Source of the DNA: an uncultured Desulfobulbus sp.
GTDB lineage: Bacteria > Desulfobacterota > Desulfobulbia > Desulfobulbales > Desulfobulbaceae
Direction of reading: 5' to 3'
Assembly (NCBI RefSeq): GCF_963665445.1
Contig: NZ_OY762276.1
Location: forward strand, 5,016,601-5,080,600
Length of the DNA stretch: 64,000 nucleotides
Below, one piece after another: positions 36,087 through 63,824 of the stretch (position 1 is the first letter of the stretch; each line of letters begins with the position of its first letter). A program made the position numbers and the translations under genes. The notes below the pieces were generated by a model that ran no database searches, had not been told where the DNA came from, and saw only the letters and a program-made list of their open reading frames with translations.

Positions 36087-36163
36087 GGCGATGTAGCTCA
36101 GCCGGTTAGAGCATACGGCTCATATCCGTAGTGTCCGGGGTTCAAGTCCCTGCATCGCCACCA
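36087..36163 (+). tRNA. tRNA-Met(CAU), integration target of two elements
   Basis: A 77-nt cloverleaf with an encoded CCA. The acceptor is GGCGATG/CATCGCC, perfectly paired, and the anticodon is CAT at 36121-36123. Acceptor positions 4-5 are G-A, not the C-C of the other CAU tRNA, so elongator Met is the likely identity. The 3' 17 nt are repeated at 55916-55932, and the tRNA stays intact after integration because the element supplies the 3' end. Confidence 0.93.
36147..36163 (+). repeat. attL core, 3' end of tRNA-Met
   Basis: TCCCTGCATCGCCACCA, the last 17 nt of the tRNA, is repeated exactly at 55916-55932. Including the bases before it, 22 nt match with one mismatch. Confidence 0.92.
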
Positions 36164-36216: not shown

Positions 36217-36252
36217 TGGTACAAAACTCTTGTACAAAACGGTGGTACAATG
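36217..36252 (+). repeat. Arm-type repeats before integrase 1
   Basis: Three direct repeats: TGGTACAAAAC (36217-36227), TTGTACAAAAC (36230-36240) and TGGTACAATG (36243-36252). The last overlaps the integrase ATG, so integrase binding could repress its own gene. Confidence 0.7.
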
Positions 36253-47498: not shown

Positions 47499-47999
47499 TC
47501 ATAATTTGTAAAATGAGTAAATAAGTAATCCAAGCCATGCAAAAGAGAATGTAATTCCTGTGTAAATAGGAATTCTGCTAACAGAATATTTATTAATTAT
47601 AAAATTATTTTCTGTGCTATTATTATCATCTTCATTTCTACTTAACCGACCTATCACTATATTTTTATAATAATTATTGTCAGCATGAAATAGTGTTTGC
47701 TCAACATTTTCATTCCTATATAACTCATTCTCATATTGTGATACTTTTTCTTCCCAATATTCTTGCCAAAATTTAGCGCCACCTGCCATCATAACTTGCA
47801 ATATTGAAACAATAAGTCCAGTAATGCATAACACGATAATAGGTACATAATCAGCATGTACAGATAAAATAGCATTAGCGCTTCCTGCCAACAAAACGCC
47901 TTGAAATATCATAAAAAAATTATTTCGCTGATAAAGTTGAGTGATTTCAAAATTTCTTAATTGCAGCGCTAGTCGGAAATTTACAATAGGTGAAGCCAT
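47499..47999 (-). CDS. RipA-like membrane protein
   Basis: A 166-residue protein. The start FRLALQLRNFEITQLYQRNNF is followed by two adjacent membrane helices, a long cytoplasmic helix (FWQEYWEEKVSQYENELYRN) and a C-terminal membrane helix (TFSFAWLGLLIYSFYKL). This resembles the small RipA-like octameric membrane protein family, but the call rests on topology and the opening motif only. It lies 46 bp upstream of the other membrane protein on the same strand, so an operon is likely. Confidence 0.5.
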   Translation of the reverse strand: MASPIVNFRLALQLRNFEITQLYQRNNFFMIFQGVLLAGSANAILSVHADYVPIIVLCITGLIVSILQVMMAGGAKFWQEYWEEKVSQYENELYRNENVEQTLFHADNNYYKNIVIGRLSRNEDDNNSTENNFIINKYSVSRIPIYTGITFSFAWLGLLIYSFYKL

Positions 48000-48091: not shown

Positions 48092-48219
48092 AATGTATTC
48101 TATGAATAACCGTTAATTAGTGAGTTGGATACATTCTGAATGTCCGGCAGAAAATGAACTTATTAATATCATATTACGCAATTACTACTATAAAAGTGCC
48201 AATTAACGGGTCTCAAGAA

Positions 48220-48888
48220 TCATCTGCACCACTGTTTTTCGCAAGGAACCCCATCATTATCGCCATCCATCTTGGTACCAGGACAGTTTTGGATGAACCA
48301 TGTTGCTTCAGCGCATGAAGTCATCTGGGAACAATAGGTTCTGCCATCACACCTGAATCCTGAACTGTTTCCCTCTTTGGGCAAGGTGCGAGGAGTGGCT
48401 GGTGTTTCCTTCCTGGATGCTTGTGCGTACTTTCGAAAATCCCAAGGTTTCACAATATTTGAACCAGCCCATAAACCTTTCTTCAACTGGCGAGCATTTG
48501 CTTCCAATCTGAGCCAATCCGAACAGAATTGTTTTTTGCAGTATTGGGGATAGACCCAGGCATACCCATTTCTGATAATCAACTCATTCAGGCTCTGGCC
48601 ATCCACTGAGACCAGGGCAACTGTTCTGCCATACTGATCAGCTGTTATGGTTTGGACATCAACTTGTCTTCCGGTGATCAATGAACCTGTTATAGATTTT
48701 GCCTGTTGTCCGTAATCTTGGTTTTTCTCAGGGCAATCTATCCCGTAGAGTCGGATTCTTTCCTCAGCACCAGAGTGGAGAACAGTGATTGTGTCACCAT
48801 CAGATATGGAAACGACCTTAGCAGGCCAGGAGAGGCAGGTGGCAGGGACAGAGAGAAGGAAGAGTAGAATAAAGCAGGAGGGGCGCAT
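48220..48888 (-). CDS. Secreted thermonuclease-like protein with excalibur domain
   Basis: A 222-residue protein with a signal peptide (CFILLFLLSVPATCLSW). A staphylococcal-nuclease fold follows: VVSISDGDTITVLHSG and RIRLYGIDCPEKNQDYGQQA (catalytic Arg and Asp), QYGRTVALVSVDGQSLNE, and NGYAWVYPQYC. The C-terminus (GFRCDGRTYCSQMTSCAEA and DGDNDGVPCEKQWC) is an excalibur calcium-binding domain with conserved Cys and a DxDxDG loop. It would cut DNA or RNA outside the cytoplasm. It is the second exported nuclease in the element. Confidence 0.92.
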   Translation of the reverse strand: MRPSCFILLFLLSVPATCLSWPAKVVSISDGDTITVLHSGAEERIRLYGIDCPEKNQDYGQQAKSITGSLITGRQVDVQTITADQYGRTVALVSVDGQSLNELIIRNGYAWVYPQYCKKQFCSDWLRLEANARQLKKGLWAGSNIVKPWDFRKYAQASRKETPATPRTLPKEGNSSGFRCDGRTYCSQMTSCAEATWFIQNCPGTKMDGDNDGVPCEKQWCR

Positions 48889-49151
48889 GCAAGTCTCCTT
48901 GAAAATGTGGTACTTGCATGTTTACCTGATCAATTTGAATATGGCAATTATAACAGACTGAATCTTAATCAAAAAATTACTACGCACTGATCACCTGGCA
49001 GCATTGGTCCTGAGTGTTCAAGTTTAAGAATAACTTAATCAGAGTGGCATCCTCTGGGTGATTTACCCAAGGAGGGCTATGGTGCTTTGACGTTAACCAA
49101 ACCCATCAAAACAGGAACCATAGCCACAAGCATTAAAATAATGTGTTAAAA
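48889..49151. other. Non-coding gap with nested inverted repeats
   Basis: A hairpin CCTCTGGGTGATTTACCCAA (49051-49070, closing to GGAGG) is joined directly to a wider inverted repeat GGCTATGGT (49075-49083) and ACCATAGCC (49117-49125). No T-run follows on either strand. It may be a structured RNA, a recombination site or a short transposon-end remnant. Confidence 0.4.
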
Positions 49152-50645
49152 TCAATACACTTTTTTTGAAAAAAGTATAATCATACGTAATTCTTCATAT
49201 ATAAATCTCATCAATTCTTTCACTTCAACATCTCCTTTAAATATAACACAATCATGAAGCTGATAATGTTCGTTAATATTTTTAGATTCTAAAAATTGAA
49301 TCATCTTATTCCTTATTTGACATTCAACTAATTGATAAATCCTGAATAAAATTCTATCTTCTAAAGATTTGCCTTTTCCGTACCCTTTTATTTTTTGTCT
49401 TTTTATGATGTTATCTGTTTCAATATCTTCATCAATCAATTTTTTAAAATTCTTAATAAATATATTACCTATCTTAATGCCTGTATTAAAATCATTATTT
49501 TGATAGTAGAATTTCTCTAAAACTTTCTCACGCAATTTTTTTGTTTCTTCTACAAGTGGATCAATTAATTTTCTGCATTCAAGTATTCTCTTTTTAGGAA
49601 AATCAAAATATCTCGTGCCGTTCTCCATTACAATTGGATATTTTCTTTTTTCGCAATATTCATAAATAATACGTCTGTTTGGTGAATAGCTTATTGATGT
49701 AATAATTTGTTTGGCCATTGGTAATTCACATTTAAATTTAAAACAGACACTATCTCTAAAACGATTTTTGTCAGCCATCATTTTATGATGTGATGGATAG
49801 TCATTTTTCAATTCTTTGAAATCAACTTTTATCCAAGGTTTTAATGTATTGTAATAGTATAGATTAACCAGTATTGATTGAATAGCACAATCAATATCAA
49901 TTTCTGTATAACCTTTAAGTATAAATTTTCTGAAATCTTTTGATAAATTACCAATTGTTGTATATTCTCTTCCAAAACCATCTAGAGATGAACTTATTGC
50001 ATTATTGTCGAAATAAACATATTCATCATCGCAAAATAATGATTTTTTAAGGATTTTAATAAAATCATTACAGATACCTTTTCTAAATTGTGAATATAAA
50101 TATAGAAATATTCTTTTATTTATCTTGCACAATCCATTTGTATTGTTTGTTTCATCAGTTTTATTAAAGACAGACTTAATTTTATTCTGATGATACTTCT
50201 CATGAACTTTATAAGTTCTATTATAAAGTATTTGTCTTTTTGTTAAGTACAATGCGATGTTGAAACAATTAATTGTAAAATCTGAATATCTATACCAATG
50301 AGAATATCCATTTTTCTCAGAACATTTCCCGTTGTTCTTGTGATATGTAGAGTTTGGCGACTTTTCAAAAAAAATAATATTTTTATACAATTTATTATTC
50401 TTCAATATAATTAAATCACTTGAATAAATATGATATCCATCAAAAAAATTATTTACATATTTAGGATTTTCAATTGAATATAATATTACGTAAGATAATT
50501 TATTTGCCAAACCATCAATTGTATGGTGATGGTATTTTATTTCTCGTTTGCAATTTTTACTAATTTGTTCTAATTTTTTTTTAATTTCTCTTTTCAACAT
50601 TTTTGTTAGTATTTTATATAAAATTGAATCTTTATCATTTTTCAT
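49152..50645 (-). CDS. Polymerase-like protein (family A/T7 RNAP-type motifs), otherwise unknown
   Basis: A 497-residue, very AT-rich, Lys- and Asn-rich protein. I do not recognise a named family, but three segments match the order of single-subunit polymerase motifs. Motif A-like is GYTEIDIDCAIQSILVNLY (D250, D252). Motif B-like is K312-x7-Y320 in AKQIITSISYSPNRR, as in T7 RNA polymerase KRSVMTLAYGS. Motif C-like is YQLHDCVIF (H464, D465), as in HDS/HDE of T7 RNAP and Pol I. Spacings of 62 and 145 residues fall between those of Klenow and T7 RNAP. The Arg four residues before K312 is missing. GREYT at 225-229 precedes motif A. No exonuclease or primase domain is visible. It sits near a serine recombinase and iteron-like repeats. 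Confidence 0.5.
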   Translation of the reverse strand: MKNDKDSILYKILTKMLKREIKKKLEQISKNCKREIKYHHHTIDGLANKLSYVILYSIENPKYVNNFFDGYHIYSSDLIILKNNKLYKNIIFFEKSPNSTYHKNNGKCSEKNGYSHWYRYSDFTINCFNIALYLTKRQILYNRTYKVHEKYHQNKIKSVFNKTDETNNTNGLCKINKRIFLYLYSQFRKGICNDFIKILKKSLFCDDEYVYFDNNAISSSLDGFGREYTTIGNLSKDFRKFILKGYTEIDIDCAIQSILVNLYYYNTLKPWIKVDFKELKNDYPSHHKMMADKNRFRDSVCFKFKCELPMAKQIITSISYSPNRRIIYEYCEKRKYPIVMENGTRYFDFPKKRILECRKLIDPLVEETKKLREKVLEKFYYQNNDFNTGIKIGNIFIKNFKKLIDEDIETDNIIKRQKIKGYGKGKSLEDRILFRIYQLVECQIRNKMIQFLESKNINEHYQLHDCVIFKGDVEVKELMRFIYEELRMIILFSKKVY

Positions 50646-50999
50646 AATATAGTTGTATTTCTCCTTTTATTGTTTACTTATATATCATATTATTTATGTA
50701 ATTATGGTATTTATAAAAAACGGAACTTGCAGTTGTAATATATGAATAATTTTAATATTAAAAACCCAAAAAAAAGAAAACAACTTTTACCACAGGTAAT
50801 GCTAGTTCTTCTTTTTTCTTTTATTTTTATTTATATATTTTTATAAACTTAATCTTTACATTACTCAACTTTTATTCATTTATTGTTTATTTCATTTTCC
50901 CTTATTATGTTATATAGGTAAATTTGATTTTATAGATAGAAAGTGATTTTGTGTTATATAGGTAAGTTTTCATGCATCCAAATAACAAATATTGTTAAT
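50646..50999. other. AT-rich gap with 13-bp direct repeats
   Basis: A 354-bp non-coding stretch, roughly 80 percent AT. GTTATATAGGTAA occurs at 50909-50921 and 50953-50965, 44 bp apart. The gap must contain the promoter of the polymerase-like gene (minus strand). Nothing else is recognised. Confidence 0.5.
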
Positions 51000-51701
51000 T
51001 CATTTCTTATCATATCTCTGCACGAAGTTCTGGATCATTTGTCCCGACCAAGGCTTCCCGGTAATAGTGGTGTACTGGTTATCCTCCAGGGCTCTCTCAT
51101 TCAATCTCTTAGCTACTTCAACATAGGTCATTCGGTCCTGTTTCTTGGGTTTTCTCCGAAGTCTCCTGATTTCCCCAAGGATCAGATCTCGTTTCTCAGA
51201 TTGCTCGGTCCATCCTTTCCTTCCCTCACATTTCCCCTCTGTCCTTCGTTTGGCCTCCCGAGCAATCCTCAGCTTTTTAACAAGAAGGTTCTTTTCCAGT
51301 TCAGCGAAGATTCCTTGGATCTGAACCATAGCTTTCTTCATTGGGTCAGAACTGATGGCCTCTGTTACATTTTCCCCAGTCCGGCAATCAATCAATGTGA
51401 TCTCTTTGGATACCAGATAAATCAAGAGCTGTTCCTGGACCCGGTATTCCCGAGCTAACCGATCCAGCCCTTCAACCACTATTGTCCGAACTCCATTTTT
51501 AAGTATCTCAGCTATCATCTCCTGAAACACTTCCCGGAACTCTTCATCCTTGGTGCCTGATACCTGTTCCCGGTAAATCTTGGTTATCTCAATGTTGGCT
51601 GATTTTCCAAATTCTGAGATTGCTGCTTCCTGCCGCTCAAACCCATTGCCATCAATCTGGCCAACACCGGAAACCCGGCAATATCCATAGGCTTTTACCA
51701 T
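51000..51701 (-). CDS. Serine recombinase (resolvase family)
   Basis: A 233-residue recombinase. The resolvase catalytic domain starts AYGYCRVSGVGQIDGNGFER with nucleophile Ser11. TIVVEGLDRLAREYRVQEQL (conserved Arg pair) and a QIQGIFAELEKNLLVKKLRI long helix follow. The C-terminus has a helix-turn-helix-like segment (MTYVEVAKRLNERALE, then GKPWSGQMIQNFVQRY). It would cut and rejoin DNA at paired sites, for example to resolve dimers or invert a segment. The 84-bp repeat units 0.4-0.9 kb upstream of its start are candidate substrates. Confidence 0.9.
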   Translation of the reverse strand: MVKAYGYCRVSGVGQIDGNGFERQEAAISEFGKSANIEITKIYREQVSGTKDEEFREVFQEMIAEILKNGVRTIVVEGLDRLAREYRVQEQLLIYLVSKEITLIDCRTGENVTEAISSDPMKKAMVQIQGIFAELEKNLLVKKLRIAREAKRRTEGKCEGRKGWTEQSEKRDLILGEIRRLRRKPKKQDRMTYVEVAKRLNERALEDNQYTTITGKPWSGQMIQNFVQRYDKK

Positions 51702-52097
51702 AGAATTTAAGTCCCGAATTAAATTTATTTTGTTTTATATAACTAATTATACATAAAAATATAGATAAATGCATTTAAATTCTACAGAAACAGATATACA
51801 AATAGGTCTCAATTAAATTCATTTTCATAAAAATAAAATTTAAAATGGGAAAAGATCTAGGACAGTTCAGAAGGTCTAGGAATGTAAGATGCCCCTCAGG
51901 TAGCTTGAAGGGCGACATCATGGCAAAGGGAGGTATCCGATCTGGTCTAGTCCGATTCCTACAACGACCAAATGAAATTGAATATTATTCTTTTACTATA
52001 TAGAGAAATCAGATTTTATAAACTTTGACCTGATCCAAGATGGATCGGAACTGTTCCGGAGTAGTGGGATTCATCCGAGCCTCTCCCAGTGGTGACC
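51702..52097. other. Non-coding AT-rich stretch upstream of the recombinase
   Basis: About 400 bp with no convincing gene. It precedes the first 84-bp repeat unit and should contain the recombinase promoter. A GC-richer island near 51880-51965 (GGCGACATCATGGCAAAGGG) is unexplained. Confidence 0.4.
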
Positions 52098-52181
52098 AAA
52101 ATCAAATCAGATATTTTTTGAAAAAACTGATTTGGTTTTGAAATCAAACCAAGAATAATTTGAAAAAACTGATTTGGTTTT
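52098..52181. repeat. 84-bp iteron-like unit, copy 1
   Basis: It contains TTTGAAAAAACTGATTTGGTTTT twice (52117-52139 and 52159-52181), plus the inverted partners AAAATCAAATCAG and AAATCAAACCAAG, so it can form alternative hairpins. Very AT-rich. Confidence 0.85.
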
Positions 52182-52481
52182 ACTCCTCTTGTGATCACCA
52201 ACCTGTCATCTGCTTCCCTATCTGCCGATTGGCACAAATCCAGGAAATAATGAAAATCTGTCATTCAGCTACAATATATTGATATTATTAAATAAGCATG
52301 CCAAAAGGCCATTGCTTCAGGGGAAGTGCCTAAGGAAGAGATTGAGGTTGTTATATCAATAAAATCAATAACATCCACGTTTTGTAAAGCCTGAGATCTG
52401 TTTGGGAAAATGCTCAATAAACAGCACATTTTCTCCATGTATACATCAGGGAAATTGGCAGTTTTGGACCCATTCAGGAGT

Positions 52482-52565
52482 AAAATCAAATCAAATAATT
52501 TTTTGAAAAACTGATTTGATTTTGAAATCAAACCAAGATTTATTTGAAAAAACTGATTTGGTTTT
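52482..52565. repeat. 84-bp iteron-like unit, copy 2
   Basis: Same length and layout as the unit at 52098. The 23-mer occurs at 52543-52565 exactly and at 52502-52523 with two differences. The units are in direct orientation, 384 bp apart. A rep-protein or recombinase-binding site is plausible. Short reading frames across both units are not convincing genes. Confidence 0.85.
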
Positions 52566-54064
52566 GGTAGCAGAACCATTCCAAGGGATTCTTGGTTTCC
52601 TGGTGAACTTGACCGACCCTATGGATTACCTGGTTACCGATTATGGTTGAGTGACTTTCCAGCTCAACACTATAAAAGAGAACTTCTCCAAATTGCTCTA
52701 AGCGATACCTGAAAACAAGAGCTCAGGCCATAATTAAAGATAAATTTGCATTTATTTTCAAAATATGTTATTATATAAATAATTGAGAAGTCTTTAAATC
52801 GTATGTGGCAGGGCGAGTTGTGTCCGGATACTCCCTGGGCAAACACTGGTGCATGAATACTAACTAACTGACAAATTTAAATGTTATATATTCAAACAAT
52901 AAGTAACAAAATGAAAATAGAAAATAATGTTTTAAATAGATTATACATGTTCAAGGTTCCGTGGCTGTAGGTTGCTATATTCTTATTTCTTTGAGATAGG
53001 TTGTTATTGATTGCCGAACATTTAGTTACTTTGATTTCCTTAATGTTCTGTTCTTAACAATTGTAAATTTTAACTATTTCTTAGAGTAAATAATCATTTT
53101 ATTTTTGAATTTAATTATAGAAAAATAAATGCAAGTTATATTTTCAACGGATACTTGCATTTAAATTTCGCTAAAAAGCAGTATTTTGAATAAAATTTAG
53201 TTCATATTTTTATTTTAAATTACTTTTTTCTTTTACTAAAAATTAAATTTTAAAAATTAATATCTCAAACACAATGAACATGAATCATATGTGTTTATTG
53301 TTCTCGTTTGTCCATTCTGTGGCCGATATCCACCAGTGGTCTATCTTTCCATCTCCCAATCTCTCAATCTCCCAATCGATTGAATTTTAAATTTCAATTA
53401 AACTCAATTTTAAAAAAATTGAATTCTGTATATAGAAAAACAATAATAATTAAATCTGGTCACAATCATCATAATTATAAAGCTGATTCTAATCAGAATA
53501 CATTCATTTCAGATGGGGCTCAGGATATAAGATCTCAACTTTTTTGGAATGGTTGACTCAGGTATGCGTGGAACAGTTTTGAATGGTACTTCTCGGTGGA
53601 TGGAATGCTGGCAAGCAGGGGATGTGTGTTGCTTGATTGGGTAGGGTGATGTATGAAGCTAGATTGAACATGGATATTAATGATAATTATTATTATACCC
53701 TATCTCTGGTTGATACACAATGATGTACACAGCTGGGAAATTGCATAAATTATCTCGTTGATTATATGTAATAATATTTGCCGAAATGGAATCTCTCTTT
53801 ACAGGTATATTAAATACAACTTATTGTGGAGCATTCAACAAATATTTTAAACTTACTAATGCAATTTAAGAACACTTAGAAATAACACACGCCAATAATT
53901 CCGCACTGCCAGCAAGTAAATTCCCTCTGAGCCTATCTCTATCTTTCTTCTCCGGAACCTGTTGATAACAATTCACAGATGCTTAATATTAGGTACCAAA
54001 GCCGTCGATAAGCAGTAGCAAGGAAAATTACCTTATCATTTGGTTTATTTAGCTTATTAGCGGT
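52566..54064. other. 1.5-kb AT-rich region without recognisable genes
   Basis: No reading frame with a ribosome binding site or protein-like composition. It contains a short CTCCCAATCT-type tandem run (53343-53378) and clustered ATTGAATT/AATTCAAT-like palindromes just after it (53385-53427). Composition is like that of a replication origin or spacer DNA, but no DnaA boxes are clear. Confidence 0.5.
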
Positions 54065-55915: not shown

Positions 55916-55932
55916 TCCCTGCATCGCCACCA
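55916..55932 (+). repeat. attR of element 1 and left junction of element 2
   Basis: An exact 17-bp copy of the tRNA-Met 3' end, TCCCTGCATCGCCACCA. It separates element 1 from the next integrase-bearing element, which means two elements are stacked in the same tRNA gene. Confidence 0.92.
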
Positions 55933-55973: not shown

Positions 55974-56009
55974 AACCCACTAATTCTAACGAGTTAGTGG
56001 GTTTTTTTA
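55974..56009 (+). terminator. Terminator at the left end of element 2
   Basis: AACCCACTAA, loop, TTAGTGGGTT, then TTTTTTA. It sits 41 bp past the att copy, the same relative position as the hairpin at 36172. It would have terminated the tRNA transcript before element 1 was inserted. Confidence 0.9.
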
Positions 56010-56037
56010 TTGGTGCCATCCCTCCGCATATTTCCCC

Positions 56038-56061
56038 ACTTGTACATTCACTTGTACATTC
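56038..56061 (+). repeat. Tandem 12-bp repeat before integrase 2
   Basis: ACTTGTACATTC occurs twice in perfect tandem (56038-56049 and 56050-56061), ending 16 bp before the integrase ATG. Candidate arm-type or autoregulatory sites. They share the core TTGTACA with the sites of element 1. Confidence 0.7.
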
Positions 56062-56077
56062 TGCCGTGGAGAAACCT

Positions 56078-58006
56078 ATGCGTCTGCCTTCCTATCTGCA
56101 AAGAAATCAGTACGGCAAATATTATTTTCGGATTGTTTTTCCTCAAGAAATCCGGTTACGTATTCACAAACAGGAGTTTAAACGGTCACTCCGCACTTCG
56201 ATATGCAGTCATGCCGTATCGATATCACGCATTTTAAAAGTAAAGATCGATCAGGTATTTAGAATCATACTTCTCTATAATATGGATTGGACAGCGACTA
56301 AAAAGCTTCTCGACAAGGTATCAATGGAGATTCTTGAAGGATATAAAGACTACCTCTTTGTGCATGGTCTGTACCCTGACGTTGCACGTAATTACCCTGA
56401 TCGGAAAGCGGAAGAGGACGCACAATACTTTCTGGAGATGAAACGGTTCCCTGATACGTATTTTGAACAGGAAGGCAGTATCAATGACATCCACCAAGGT
56501 TATGGTGAAGATGCTGATATCGTCCAGCACATCCTCTGGAGACGTGAGGGGGGCGGCAAGTTGGCAAACATTGAATCGGTCAAGAACTTTGCCGACAGGA
56601 TCATTGCCGATAAAGCACTGGTGGTTGCTGACACCGACTATGAACTCTTTTGCCAGAAGGTTGCGGAAATGTTGTGGCAGTTGAAGGATGATCGGGAAGC
56701 ATTGTTTCAGCAGCTTGACTCTGGACAGCAGCAGGACGTAATTACCAACACGCCAGCGGTTGATTTGGGGCAAGAAGAGGTTGAGGCTGTCAACACCTGC
56801 CAAGCAAAGGCGTGCACCTCAATCACCTTTGATCAGCTTATTGAGAAGTACATTGAATACAAAGTCAGCAGACAGAGTTGGAGCGCAATGACCTTGCGGG
56901 GGAAGAAACTTGCCCTCGGGGCTTTGCTGGAGATTTTTCAGTATATTAAAAATAGTGAAACTGTTTATCTGCACGATCTCAACGCAGAGGATGTAGGTTT
57001 GTTTGAAAGAACGTTGAGGCAAATGCCAAGTAACAGGAAAAAAATCTATAAGGATTGCTCAATTGCTGATCTGATGAGGAATGTGAATCGTCGTGAAATA
57101 TCAGAAAGCGAGTTCATAACAGACAAGACCTATAATGATTACTGCATCCTGCTTACTGGCATGATGAACTTTGCGGTTGAACCACGACAGGGATTTATTC
57201 CCTGCAATTACTTTACTGATCTTAAGGTCAAGGTCAGAGATGCTGTCAAAAAAATTCCATTCACCAGTCGTGAACTTGAACTTTTTTTTAATACGGACTT
57301 GTTCGTATTAAAAAAAGTGTCGTTGCAGTTTGCGTGGAGATATTGGATTCCAGTACTGATGTTGTACCACGGCACCAGACTCGAAGAAGTTTCACAGCCT
57401 TTTTTATCGGATATTGAGCAAGTGGAAGGCATTTGGTGTTTAAAAATTGAACAGGAAAAAAAGAAACCGAGATACAGGGCAAAAGATCAAAAGGAGAAGA
57501 TTGTCAAGAACCCAAGTTCCGTTAGGTATGTGCCGCTGCATGACAAGCTTCTTCAACTCGGCTTTATGGAATATGTTACATTTCTTCAGGGTAAAGGTGA
57601 GAAAAAGTTATTTCCCGATTTATCGAAGCAGACCCCGAATGGTCAGTATATCAAGCATGGGGCGAAGGTGACCGCTTTTTTCACAGAGGACAGTGAAAAG
57701 CAGAGCAAAACATCATATCTGACCAAATGTGGCGTTAAAACTCCTGACACACCGCCAAGGACCAAAGCCCTTATCTGTTTCAGGCACACCGTTCAGAAGG
57801 TGCTCAATGACCATCCAAGTAATGTCATTTCCGGTAAAATTGATCAACTGGTAGGGCACTCACCTCAGTCGATTGGCATCAAACACTACAGCGGGTATTC
57901 GGAAGCGACTATTAAGGCTGTTGTAGATTTGATAGATTTCCCTGATGCGAATCTACCTTGGGATAAGGACCCTGATTATGGGAAAATAAAATTTTCTTGG
58001 GAATGA
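56078..58006 (+). CDS. Large tyrosine integrase of element 2
   Basis: A 642-residue integrase starting at ATG 56078 (MRLPSYLQRNQYGKYYFRIV) with GGAG upstream. The N-terminus resembles that of integrase 1, but the protein is about 170 residues longer, with a long helical insert. The catalytic domain near the C-terminus has HGTRLEEVSQ (Arg), RYVPLHDKL, FRHTVQKVL (Arg), LVGHSPQSIG (His) and KHYSGYSE (nucleophile Tyr). In the HxxR box the first His seems replaced by Ile (ICFRHT), which is unusual. It probably catalyses integration at the same tRNA-Met site. Confidence 0.9.
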   Translation: MRLPSYLQRNQYGKYYFRIVFPQEIRLRIHKQEFKRSLRTSICSHAVSISRILKVKIDQVFRIILLYNMDWTATKKLLDKVSMEILEGYKDYLFVHGLYPDVARNYPDRKAEEDAQYFLEMKRFPDTYFEQEGSINDIHQGYGEDADIVQHILWRREGGGKLANIESVKNFADRIIADKALVVADTDYELFCQKVAEMLWQLKDDREALFQQLDSGQQQDVITNTPAVDLGQEEVEAVNTCQAKACTSITFDQLIEKYIEYKVSRQSWSAMTLRGKKLALGALLEIFQYIKNSETVYLHDLNAEDVGLFERTLRQMPSNRKKIYKDCSIADLMRNVNRREISESEFITDKTYNDYCILLTGMMNFAVEPRQGFIPCNYFTDLKVKVRDAVKKIPFTSRELELFFNTDLFVLKKVSLQFAWRYWIPVLMLYHGTRLEEVSQPFLSDIEQVEGIWCLKIEQEKKKPRYRAKDQKEKIVKNPSSVRYVPLHDKLLQLGFMEYVTFLQGKGEKKLFPDLSKQTPNGQYIKHGAKVTAFFTEDSEKQSKTSYLTKCGVKTPDTPPRTKALICFRHTVQKVLNDHPSNVISGKIDQLVGHSPQSIGIKHYSGYSEATIKAVVDLIDFPDANLPWDKDPDYGKIKFSWE

Positions 58007-60813: not shown

Positions 60814-61611
60814 ATGACTAATTTTAACGAAAGTATCGGGTTTATCTGGAGTATCGCAGAAATTTTGAGGGGTAGTTTCAAGCAATCAGAGTACGGCAGA
60901 GTGGTATTACCTTTCACAGTATTGCGCCGTCTTGACTGTGTGCTCGAACCCACCAAGGATGCTGTTCAGGAACAGTTAAAATCCTTACCTGCAAAGATTG
61001 ATGATGCAATGAAGGAAACGATGCTCAACATGGCATCAGGGCATAATTTCCATAATATATCACCATTTACCTTTGAAAAATTGCTTGATGATCCTGATAA
61101 CATTGCTGCCAATCTGAACAATTTCATCAATAATTTCAGTGCAGATGCTCGTGAGATTTTCATAGACCGTTTCAAATTGCCTGAACAGATTACACGATTG
61201 GACAAAGACAACCTGCTTTACATGGTCGTTAGCCGATTTGCTCAAGCTGATCTGCACCCTGATACGGTCAGCAACATTCAGATGGGTTACATCTTTGAGG
61301 AACTGATTAGAAGGTTCTCGGAACAATCAAATGAAACCGCTGGTGAGCACTTCACGCCACGTGAGGTAATTCGGTTGATGGTCAATGTACTCTTCCAAGA
61401 GGACAACGATATACTAACTAAACAAGGCATCATTCGGAAACTTTATGATCCGGCAGCAGGCACAGGCGGGATGCTTTCAGTTGCCGAAGAATACCTTCGT
61501 GAGTTGAACCCTGATGCGCATTTGGAGGTATACGGGCAGGAACTCAATGATGAGAGTTACGGTACATGTAAATCTGACATGATGATTAAAGGTCAGAATG
61601 CAAAAAATATC
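60814..61611 (+). pseudogene. hsdM: hsdM, type I methyltransferase subunit truncated by an IS
   Basis: 266 native residues remain. The N-terminal HsdM helical domain (FIWSIAEILRGSFKQSEYGR, then LPFTVLRRLDCVLEPT) is followed by the start of the SAM-binding domain: EHFTPREVIRLM and motif I DPAAGTGGML. The reading frame then enters the insertion sequence (CLVRRICG, stop). The catalytic NPPF/Y motif and the C-terminus are missing, so no active methyltransferase can be made from this gene. Confidence 0.93.
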
Positions 61612-63171
61612 TGCCTCGTCCGCAGAATTTGTGGGTAGCTCTTTGAAAATAAGCCCCAGAACCTGAGCCCCTCCGGAGGTGAGAGGGGTGGGCACCTGCC
61701 GCCCCGTCACCCTTGCCACTTTCAGGATGAGCAGGGAGGTTCGTCTCTGTCAAGGCTGTGCGCGCAGCGCGCACCCGCAGGGCTTGGCCTTGATAGAGGC
61801 GGACCTCCCTGCTATTGCCAATGTCCTTTTGTGGGGGTTTCATAAAATGCATCCTGCCTTACTTTGCCGGGGGAATGTTTCTTCCAAAAACTCCTCAGCT
61901 TAGATCAGACAGGATGCACGTTAAAACTATCTTGAACCGTATTGAAAAACAACCGGGTTTTATCTATGACACTTGCAAATGGCGTGATTCCGGACCGCCG
62001 GCATTGGTGATAACGTTGCGGCCCCAGGCCGGCCGCAAACCCATCTGTTCCAAGTGCGGCCAGAGGGGGCCGGGGTACGACACCCTGCGTGTCAGATCTT
62101 TTGCCTTTGTGCCCTTGTGGGGCATTCCGGTATTTTTCCTCTATGCTCCACGGCGGCTGCAGTGTCCAACCTGTGGCGTCAAAGTCGAAAAGCTGCCATG
62201 GGTTGTAGGAAAGAGCCATCTTACGATCTCTTACGCATGGTTCCTGGCCACATGGTGTAAACGCTTGAGCTGGAAGGAAGTGGCCGAAATCTTTAAAACC
62301 AGTTGGGACACGGTCTTCAGGTCGGTGGAAATGGCGGTCAACTGGGGGCTCGCCTATCGTAATATCGATGGGATCACTGCCATTGGCATCGACGAAATCT
62401 GCTGGCGCAAACGCAAGGATAAGTTTGTCACCCTGGTGTATCAGCTTGACCAGGGAAAAAGGCGCCTGCTTTGGATCGGCCCCGACAGGACCGCCAAAAC
62501 TTTCAGAGAGTTTTTCGACTGGCTCGGCACGGCAAGGTCTCGGCAATTGCGGTTTATTTGCAGTGACATGTGGAAACCCTATCTGGCCGTCATTGCCGAA
62601 AAAGCAGCGGGCGCCGTCAATATCCTCGACCGGTTTCATATCATGAGTCACATGAGCAAGGCTATCGACGAGGTCAGAGCCGATGAGGCCAAGGAGCTCA
62701 AGAAGAAGGGGAAAGAACCCCTCCTTGCAAAGAGCCGTTGGTGCCTCTTAAAACGACCTGAAAATCTGACCGAAAAACAGGTGGACAGGCTCAAGGATCT
62801 GCTCGCATGCAACCTCAGAACTATCCGCGCCTACTTGCTCAAGGAAGATTTTCAGCGATTCTGGGGCTACAGTTCACCGGCTTGGGCTGGAAAGTTTCTT
62901 GATGCCTGGTGCACAAGAACCATGCGATCCAAAATCAAACCGATGAAGAAGGTTGCCAAAATGTTGAGAGCTCACCGCCCCCTCCTGCTCAACTGGTTTC
63001 GTGCAAAAAATACGATTGCCCTGGGTTGTGTGGAGGGCTTTAACAACAAGGCAAAGGTGGTTACCAAGCGATCCTATGGATTTCGCACGTACGATGGGCT
63101 GAAAATAGCTTTATATCATGGGCTTGGTGACCTGCCGATACCCCAGGGTGCCCACAGATTCTGCTGAGGAA
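61612..63171 (+). mobile_element. ISL3-family insertion sequence, about 1.56 kb
   Basis: It is flanked by imperfect inverted repeats. GCAGAATTTGTGGGTAGC (61622-61639) matches, with three differences, the complement of 63147-63164. It holds one transposase gene and a GC-rich composition unlike the surrounding element. I see no target-site duplication, and the flanks come from two different genes, which indicates a deletion at the insertion. Confidence 0.85.
61914..63167 (+). CDS. ISL3-family transposase
   Basis: A 417-residue transposase starting at ATG 61914 (MHVKTILNRIEKQPGFIYDT). It has an N-terminal Cys4 zinc finger (CSKCGQRG and CPTCGVKV), a helix-turn-helix-like region (LSWKEVAEIFKTSWDTVFRS), and a DDE catalytic domain: IGIDEICWRK, FICSDMWKPYLAVI and GCVEGFNNKAK supply the acidic residues. 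Length and motifs are complete, so the element may be active. Confidence 0.93.
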   Translation: MHVKTILNRIEKQPGFIYDTCKWRDSGPPALVITLRPQAGRKPICSKCGQRGPGYDTLRVRSFAFVPLWGIPVFFLYAPRRLQCPTCGVKVEKLPWVVGKSHLTISYAWFLATWCKRLSWKEVAEIFKTSWDTVFRSVEMAVNWGLAYRNIDGITAIGIDEICWRKRKDKFVTLVYQLDQGKRRLLWIGPDRTAKTFREFFDWLGTARSRQLRFICSDMWKPYLAVIAEKAAGAVNILDRFHIMSHMSKAIDEVRADEAKELKKKGKEPLLAKSRWCLLKRPENLTEKQVDRLKDLLACNLRTIRAYLLKEDFQRFWGYSSPAWAGKFLDAWCTRTMRSKIKPMKKVAKMLRAHRPLLLNWFRAKNTIALGCVEGFNNKAKVVTKRSYGFRTYDGLKIALYHGLGDLPIPQGAHRFC

Positions 63172-63824
63172 CCGGAATTGAATGGTTGGGTGAGGTTCCT
63201 GAACATTGGGACTTGACAAAATTATTTTTTGTTGCAGAAAAAATTGGCGATGGTCTCCATTCCACACCAAATTATGTTGATTCTTCAGACTATTACTTTG
63301 TAAATGGAAACAATTTAGAGAATGGAAAAATAGTAATTAGAAACACAACAAAGTGTGTCGATGAAGTCGAATACAATAAATACAAAATAAATATTAACGA
63401 TAGAACAATTTTACTGTCAATCAACGGAACTATTGGAAAGATTGCCTTTTATAATGATGAAAATGTAATTTTGGGAAAAAGTGCTGCATACATTGTATGC
63501 ACTAAAAAATTATCAAAGAATTATCTATTTTACTTGTTACAATCAAATGCTATAACAAATTATTTTACAGACGAGGTAACGGGTACAGGAACCACAATAC
63601 AAAACTTATCTTTACATTCGATAAAGAATACACCCGTACTGCTACCACCTCTCAATGCTCAAAAAAACATCGCCAGTTATCTTGATAATATACTAACAAA
63701 ACATGATTTTTTAATAGACAAGACAAATCATGCCGTGAATCTATTGCAAGAGCGCCGAACAGCACTGATATCAGCAGCAGTCACCGGGAAAATTGATGTA
63801 CGCAATGCATACTACCGAAGATAA
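63171..63824 (+). pseudogene. hsdS: hsdS remnant, C-terminal half of a specificity subunit
   Basis: The open frame resumes right after the IS with GIEWLGEVPEHWDLTKLFFV, the usual start of a target-recognition domain in HsdS. It continues through ILLSINGTIGKIAFYND and PVLLPPLNAQKNIASYLDNI to the coiled C-terminal spacer (LLQERRTALISAAVTGKIDV). The first target-recognition domain and the gene start are absent, so only about half of the subunit is left. Translation from an internal TTG at 63186 is possible in principle; half-subunits can sometimes dimerise. Confidence 0.88.

Follow-up and report, generated by a model that had tools for sequence, protein, structure and literature searches.

The window analysed here is a 64,000-nucleotide stretch from the genome of an uncultured Desulfobulbus sp. 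(assembly GCF_963665445.1, contig NZ_OY762276.1, positions 5,016,601 to 5,080,600). On its minus strand, at 49152..50645, the listing of open reading frames (ORFs) includes one with an ATG start, whose 497-residue product we call P0001. On the same strand, at 51000..51701, lies the gene for a small serine recombinase of 233 amino acids (Pfam Resolvase, 1.3e-26); its end and the P0001 start codon, farther downstream, are 354 bp apart. An earlier note on this DNA had placed P0001 beside a serine recombinase in an AT-rich segment, and both observations hold: G+C content is 23.8% in the P0001 gene, compared with 46.3% in the recombinase gene. From sequence comparisons, we propose that P0001 is probably a highly divergent, stand-alone DNA polymerase resembling the TV-Pols, the family-A-like polymerases of transposons and viruses described in 2008 by Iyer, Abhiman and Aravind (PMC2579912; this and the other published reports are cited from excerpts). 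P0001 would serve a small mobile element with a recombinase gene as its replication cassette.

Polymerase-like motifs of P0001

Three ordered segments drew attention to P0001 in the earlier note, and all are present. D250 and D252 lie within EIDIDCAIQSIL, K312-x7-Y320 within AKQIITSISYSP, and H464-D465 within YQLHDCVIF. They had been read as motifs of a right-hand polymerase of the family-A or T7 type, which the tests below bear out. The closest detectable relatives belong to a viral, TV-Pol-like clade with IDIKN[SC]QP as motif A, found by a DNA-pattern scan of viral contigs (IMG/VR) in which 51 of 75 loci encode IDIKNSQP. Clade members carry GR..T....L...R, EIDI, K-x7-[FY] and HD blocks in the same order as P0001, and KEIFITILYSSNR of one member (L153) corresponds to KQIITSISYSPNR of P0001. 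From the 51 loci, 39 rows were long enough, 30 remained without near-duplicates, and 22 entered a block model, because the other eight had no recognised anchor. The blocks were scanned in order under wide, partly hand-set spacing limits.

P0001 obtained an ordered block score of 19.0 in this model, with a best path through R226, D250, K312 and D465. Shuffled P0001 sequences reached at most 12.0, and none of 3000 attained the observed score (z 6.0). With the R and D blocks only, a comparison that is independent of the hand-set limit, P0001 scored 18.1 against a shuffle maximum of 11.9 (0/3000). The same four residues are also the single best positions in the whole protein for the R, D, K and HD blocks. 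R226 (in GREY; codon 49968..49970, minus strand) scored 13.7 bits, with the next position at 1.6. It precedes D250 (49896..49898, minus strand) by 24 residues. D250, the candidate motif A Asp, scored 4.4 bits (next, 3.4), while D252 scored -6.8 under the same block. For the putative motif B Lys, K312 (49710..49712, minus strand), the values were 7.5 and 2.1 bits, and for motif C, H464-D465 (49251..49256, minus strand), 2.8 and -1.1. We also scored 370 control ORFs from the fetched loci, one of which (L080) is a fragment of P0001. Eight outscored P0001 (L129, L103, L112, L135, L101, L056, L069 and L072), and all eight have family motifs; the top control without them scored 5.1. Five TV-Pol rows fell below P0001 in this test.

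Alignment of P0001 to the clade with hhalign gave an E-value of 3.9e-5 and a probability of 71% over residues 429-489, the motif C region, keeping Q438, E441 and HD in register. The clade alignment (A6) consisted of 15 rows chosen from 45 listed ORFs. The earlier note had suggested conservation in relatives as a check, and the motif residues withstood it: R, D, K, Q, E and the motif C Asp are invariant in all 15 rows, the motif A Asp being fixed by the clade-finding procedure itself, and the motif C His is present in 13. Over the core, hhalign related the TV-Pol set to the viral clade weakly (E 0.0035, probability 9%). Several tests were tried, and the block test and hhalign gave the clearest support. 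Judged in this way, the motif match exceeds chance, but only under tests designed for divergent motifs, and a relation of P0001 to TV-Pol-like polymerases is supported statistically.

TV-Pols and the search for relatives

TV-Pols are described as proteins of 400-600 amino acids, of which some stand alone and many are encoded in mobile elements, next to a gamma-delta resolvase; their hallmarks are an RxxxK motif in the fingers, a pair of Asp residues in the palm and a conserved Arg in a hairpin (PMC2579912). R226 of P0001 appears equivalent to the absolutely conserved beta-hairpin Arg, D250 and D465 align with the palm Asp residues of motifs A and C, and the gene sits beside a serine recombinase in a mobile-element context. 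The fingers motif is incomplete: K312 is there, and position 308 is Leu. The earlier note regarded the missing Arg as unusual, yet Arg occupies the position four residues before the Lys in just one of 11 aligned TV-Pols; of the 22 viral-clade members, 16 have Arg there and six have Lys. The absence of any other domain had also been thought odd and is normal for TV-Pols. Nor is the family uncharacterised, as that note supposed: the description of TV-Pols dates from 2008 (PMC2579912).

The TV-Pols used for comparison were gathered by motif and profile from a Microcystis phage protein, two Polaromonas plasmids, a Calothrix plasmid, Erwinia phage proteins and two viral contigs; two were found in the host's own order. 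On the two Polaromonas plasmids and the Calothrix plasmid, the TV-Pol ORFs lie approximately 0.7-1.4 kb from serine recombinase genes. When P0001 was aligned with four TV-Pols (A5), the sole invariant columns were R226, D250, K312, E441, H464 and D465, and three MAFFT modes recovered all six catalytic positions. With MAFFT localpair, none of 500 shuffles reproduced the six positions (four reproduced five), and none of 100 unrelated ORFs reproduced five. The spacing from K to E (129 residues) and from E to D (24) in P0001 is matched by five TV-Pols with long inserts (127-145 and 24-26).

Single-sequence searches with P0001 found no relative in Pfam, PHROGs, NCBIfam, PDB, plasmids, phages, genome contigs or viral contigs, and among 95 genomes near the host it matched only its own genome at E 0.001. 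Samples of the class (257 genomes) and phylum (297 genomes) gave 15 weak matches; six were read, and none was a polymerase by eye. To searches of the ordinary kind, P0001 is an orphan. Among the class matches, L014, L015 and L017 were rejected as response regulators by eye and L016 as a frame without motifs, and the remaining nine of 13 comprise eight with open frames of 46-130 amino acids and one of 1271. Both phylum matches were rejected, L038 as a CBS/haemolysin-like protein by eye and L039 as a frame without motifs. A profile search of the class (A3) matched seven of 257 genomes at E <= 0.1. Two of these are TV-Pols, and inspection of three more (L066-L068) by eye led to their rejection; the remaining two, G239 and G113, were left out.

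Some TV-Pol loci have features of their own. A TV-Pol-like gene on a Synechocystis plasmid (L071:2695-4231) is annotated as two hypothetical ORFs, with the motif C stretch over the second. In two other genomes of the host's order, the TV-Pol neighbourhoods (L064:4041-4577 and L065:1664-2188) contain small ORFs that look similar by eye, one of them resembling an integrase and the other starting with QGxLDxLCG.

The recombinase element and its exchanged cassette

The same genome contains two more copies of the recombinase, with 97% amino acid identity, making three in total. The two other element copies are in opposite orientation to each other and are 99.987% identical over 7562 bp. In blastn comparisons, 48217-49064 of the window is 95% identical to them and 51000-53784 is 94.4% identical, with no match between. 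The element in the window spans 48217..53784 by this identity, the exchanged cassette (49065..50999) excepted. Identity ends 176 bp upstream of a thermonuclease-like gene (SNase and Excalibur; 48220..48888, minus strand; 95% DNA identity with the other copies) and returns at the end of the recombinase ORF. Within these breakpoints, the window carries P0001, and the two other copies carry a gene for an 829-amino acid protein. P0001 is encoded on the same strand as the recombinase, and the 829-amino acid gene faces the recombinase gene. The other cassette ORFs in the window encode 25-46 amino acids, apart from the start of a 171-amino acid frame antisense to the recombinase.

On the far side of the recombinase from P0001 are two repeat blocks, at 52085..52181 and 52469..52565, which occur in all three copies. 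They are built of imperfect, nearly palindromic 42-bp units, two of them in the first block. The iteron-like repeats of the earlier note are real in that they occupy 52.1-52.6 kb, but they are of inverted type and are not classical iterons.

The 829-amino acid protein (from locus L086) has no family, PDB or plasmid match, and a search of the 257 class genomes at E 1e-5 returned only its own two copies. By eye, its FLDFD, KLH and VD segments resemble what we take to be the three AEP primase motifs, and NEGLGKST is presumably a P-loop-like sequence. The protein looks like a candidate primase/helicase, unrelated to P0001.

Searches with other parts of the element gave little more. The only match of element DNA in the plasmid collection was 101 bp long. 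Three other genomes encode a relative of the recombinase; one (G110) has an ORF that resembles a D5-like helicase by eye approximately 2 kb away, and no polymerase or helicase was recognised in the corresponding stretches of the other two (G068 and G040). Recombinase relatives in Sinorhizobium are 35% identical. ORFs within 6 kb of them were listed by their ends only, and one, of 239 amino acids, holds the letters HDG.

The two inverted copies lie on an island of approximately 29 kb, between the halves of an apparently split comM/yifB-like gene (by eye; L086:4651-6039 and L087:12887-13381, near 1.514 and 1.543 Mb of the same genome). One end of that island carries an ORF for a large serine recombinase (Pfam Resolvase, Recombinase and Zn ribbon). 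The island around the window copy appears to be bounded by repeats of a tRNA-Met 3' end: 17 bp of the tRNA-Met gene at 36087-36163 recur at 55916-55932. An ORF that is integrase-like by eye follows the tRNA gene at 36250, and another integrase-like gene (55997-58006), which has a DUF6538 domain, adjoins the second repeat. Two islands possibly stand in tandem. Elsewhere in the window are an ORF that matches the Pfam 8xMP octameric membrane protein family (47499-47999; 2.8e-24) and a region resembling type I restriction-modification systems (60814-63824, by eye), in which a transposase-like ORF (61815-63167) is situated between apparent methylase and specificity genes.

Possible roles of P0001 and known systems

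The simplest interpretation makes P0001 the element's replication enzyme, with the 829-amino acid protein taking its place elsewhere. P0001 would consist of a right-hand core of approximately 280 residues, of the family-A or T7 type, behind a variable N-terminal region. The serine recombinase would cut and join the element or its excised form, and an AT-rich origin, for which the palindromic repeats are a candidate, could be the place where DNA synthesis begins. The likeliest role of P0001 is to prime DNA synthesis, elongate DNA or do both when the element replicates. D250 and D465 would coordinate two metal ions as P0001 made and/or extended the first strand, K312 would sit in the fingers, and R226 would be close to the template or primer. 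In the sister copies, the 829-amino acid protein would do the equivalent job.

Several observations weigh against this reading. No close homologue of P0001 was found in the 95 near-host, 257 class and 297 phylum genomes or among plasmids and phages, and the ORF listing of the cassette contains no candidate helicase or single-stranded DNA-binding (SSB)-like ORF beside it. AlphaFold2 models were of low confidence, with a mean predicted local distance difference test (pLDDT) score of 34.2 from the single sequence and 41.9 from a five-row alignment, which leaves the palm fold a prediction. In the viral-clade block test, the limits, weights and 160-residue upper spacing from K to E were set by hand, and the Q..E block at 438-441 scores poorly, with the block path diverging there. 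One alignment (A7) puts D252, not D250, in the motif A column and leaves K312 outside the motif B column. K373, which that alignment suggests as the motif B Lys, was rejected with a block score of -4.6 versus 7.5 for K312. The R-to-D and D-to-K spacings of P0001 (24 and 62) are outside those of the 11 TV-Pols (27-31 and 43-49), while falling inside the viral-clade range. In a block model of these 11 proteins, with anchors placed by hand, P0001 scored -15 against 71 to 168 for left-out true members, and 15 of 3000 shuffles matched its score. Default MAFFT aligned four of the six catalytic positions, which 33 of 400 shuffles equalled, one of them with six.

Ordinary profiles were no kinder to P0001. 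Plain HMMER searches with the TV-Pol and clade profiles gave no significant score and did not separate it from shuffles. With bias correction off, the number of shuffles that reached P0001 was 25 to 94 out of approximately 3000 by five measures and 580 out of 3000 by a sixth; with correction on, many shuffles outscored the full-length protein. In one ranking of 3002 entries, the P0001 core stood 18th and full-length P0001 2768th.

We considered whether P0001 is instead a decayed or catalytically dead TV-Pol relative, either retained for a structural or regulatory role in replication or surviving as a relic that drifts in AT-rich island DNA. Its extreme AT bias, the lack of close homologues and the replacement of the RxxxK Arg by Leu308 are what such a protein might show, and some Pol-like ORFs of such elements lack catalytic residues (PMC10061031). 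Drift in an AT-rich frame should, however, remove motif residues and introduce stops, whereas P0001 is an unbroken ORF of 497 codons that keeps R226, D250, K312 and H464-D465. We consider this explanation unlikely, though it is the strongest of the alternatives. Less probable still is a right-hand polymerase with another job, such as an RNA polymerase or a defence-linked enzyme that synthesises DNA. Among the detectable relatives of P0001, the nearest are mobile-element and viral proteins of the TV-Pol-like type, and the cassette sits in a recombinase element whose sister copies bear a primase/helicase-like gene. The earlier note had allowed for a role in defence, which gained no support: P0001 has no defence-associated domain in Pfam, PHROGs or NCBIfam (PADLOC was not searched).

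A chance resemblance of motifs in a protein unrelated to polymerases would agree with the failure of single-sequence searches in Pfam, PHROGs, NCBIfam, PDB, plasmids and phages and with the plain HMMER results. This explanation is very improbable, given that no shuffle among 3000 reached the block score of 19.0, that controls from outside the family stayed at or below 5.1, and that hhalign returned an E-value of 3.9e-5.

If P0001 is such a polymerase, TV-Pol-like enzymes would extend to sequences that are invisible to standard searches, and more of them may therefore hide among orphan ORFs of genomic islands. A broader suggestion, which we make tentatively, is a family of serine-recombinase elements whose replication cassettes are interchangeable. 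One type of cassette would encode a lone TV-Pol-like primase-polymerase and neither helicase nor SSB, the other a primase-helicase-like protein, and the two would work from a shared set of palindromic repeats. In that case, nature would have carried out a swap experiment in this genome, showing two unrelated enzymes to be functionally equivalent. TV-Pols were predicted to be primase-polymerases, functionally equivalent to AEP prim-pols, from the exchange of the two modules fused to or beside D5 helicases (PMC2579912). The cassette exchange described here seems to resemble that of Iyer et al. Taking place in one genome, in elements otherwise 94-95% identical, it looks like a direct case of the replacement behind the prediction, and the two cassettes offer a clean pair for testing it.

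Among known systems, P0001 resembles the TV-Pols in size (400-600 amino acids), in its ability to stand alone (PMC2579912), and in the order of hairpin Arg, two Asp and fingers Lys beside an adjoining resolvase-type recombinase in a mobile element. It differs in a profile score far outside the sampled family, in a cassette that lacks a D5-like helicase and, in part, in the missing RxxxK Arg, which 10 of the 11 aligned TV-Pols also lack. The viral clade has IDIKNSQP in place of EIDIDCAIQS, and its 22 members are shorter, with 51-56 residues from K to E compared with 129 in P0001. The CCPol-MP and PolA-SSB systems likewise involve a family-A polymerase of a serine-recombinase element, and CCPol with its partner MP has been shown to prime DNA (SCCmec; PMC7581432, PMC10061031). 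There, an OB-fold SSB ORF lies between polymerase and helicase, which the ORF listing does not contain at P0001, and CcPol is close to housekeeping Pol I (PMC10061031), unlike P0001. In-place swapping of DNA polymerases is known in tailed phages of the Caudoviricetes, where, as here, a replication gene is exchanged and the surrounding genes are unchanged (PMC11348598). The present exchange differs in that it affects a recombinase element that has integrated into a bacterial genome, has both alternatives in one genome, and is between TV-Pol-like and primase/helicase-like proteins. The available excerpts of the TV-Pol literature (PMC2579912, PMC10061031, PMC7581432, PMC11348598) describe neither P0001 nor a comparable exchange. 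P0001 would be a very divergent protein within the known TV-Pol kind, with an unusually clean cassette exchange.
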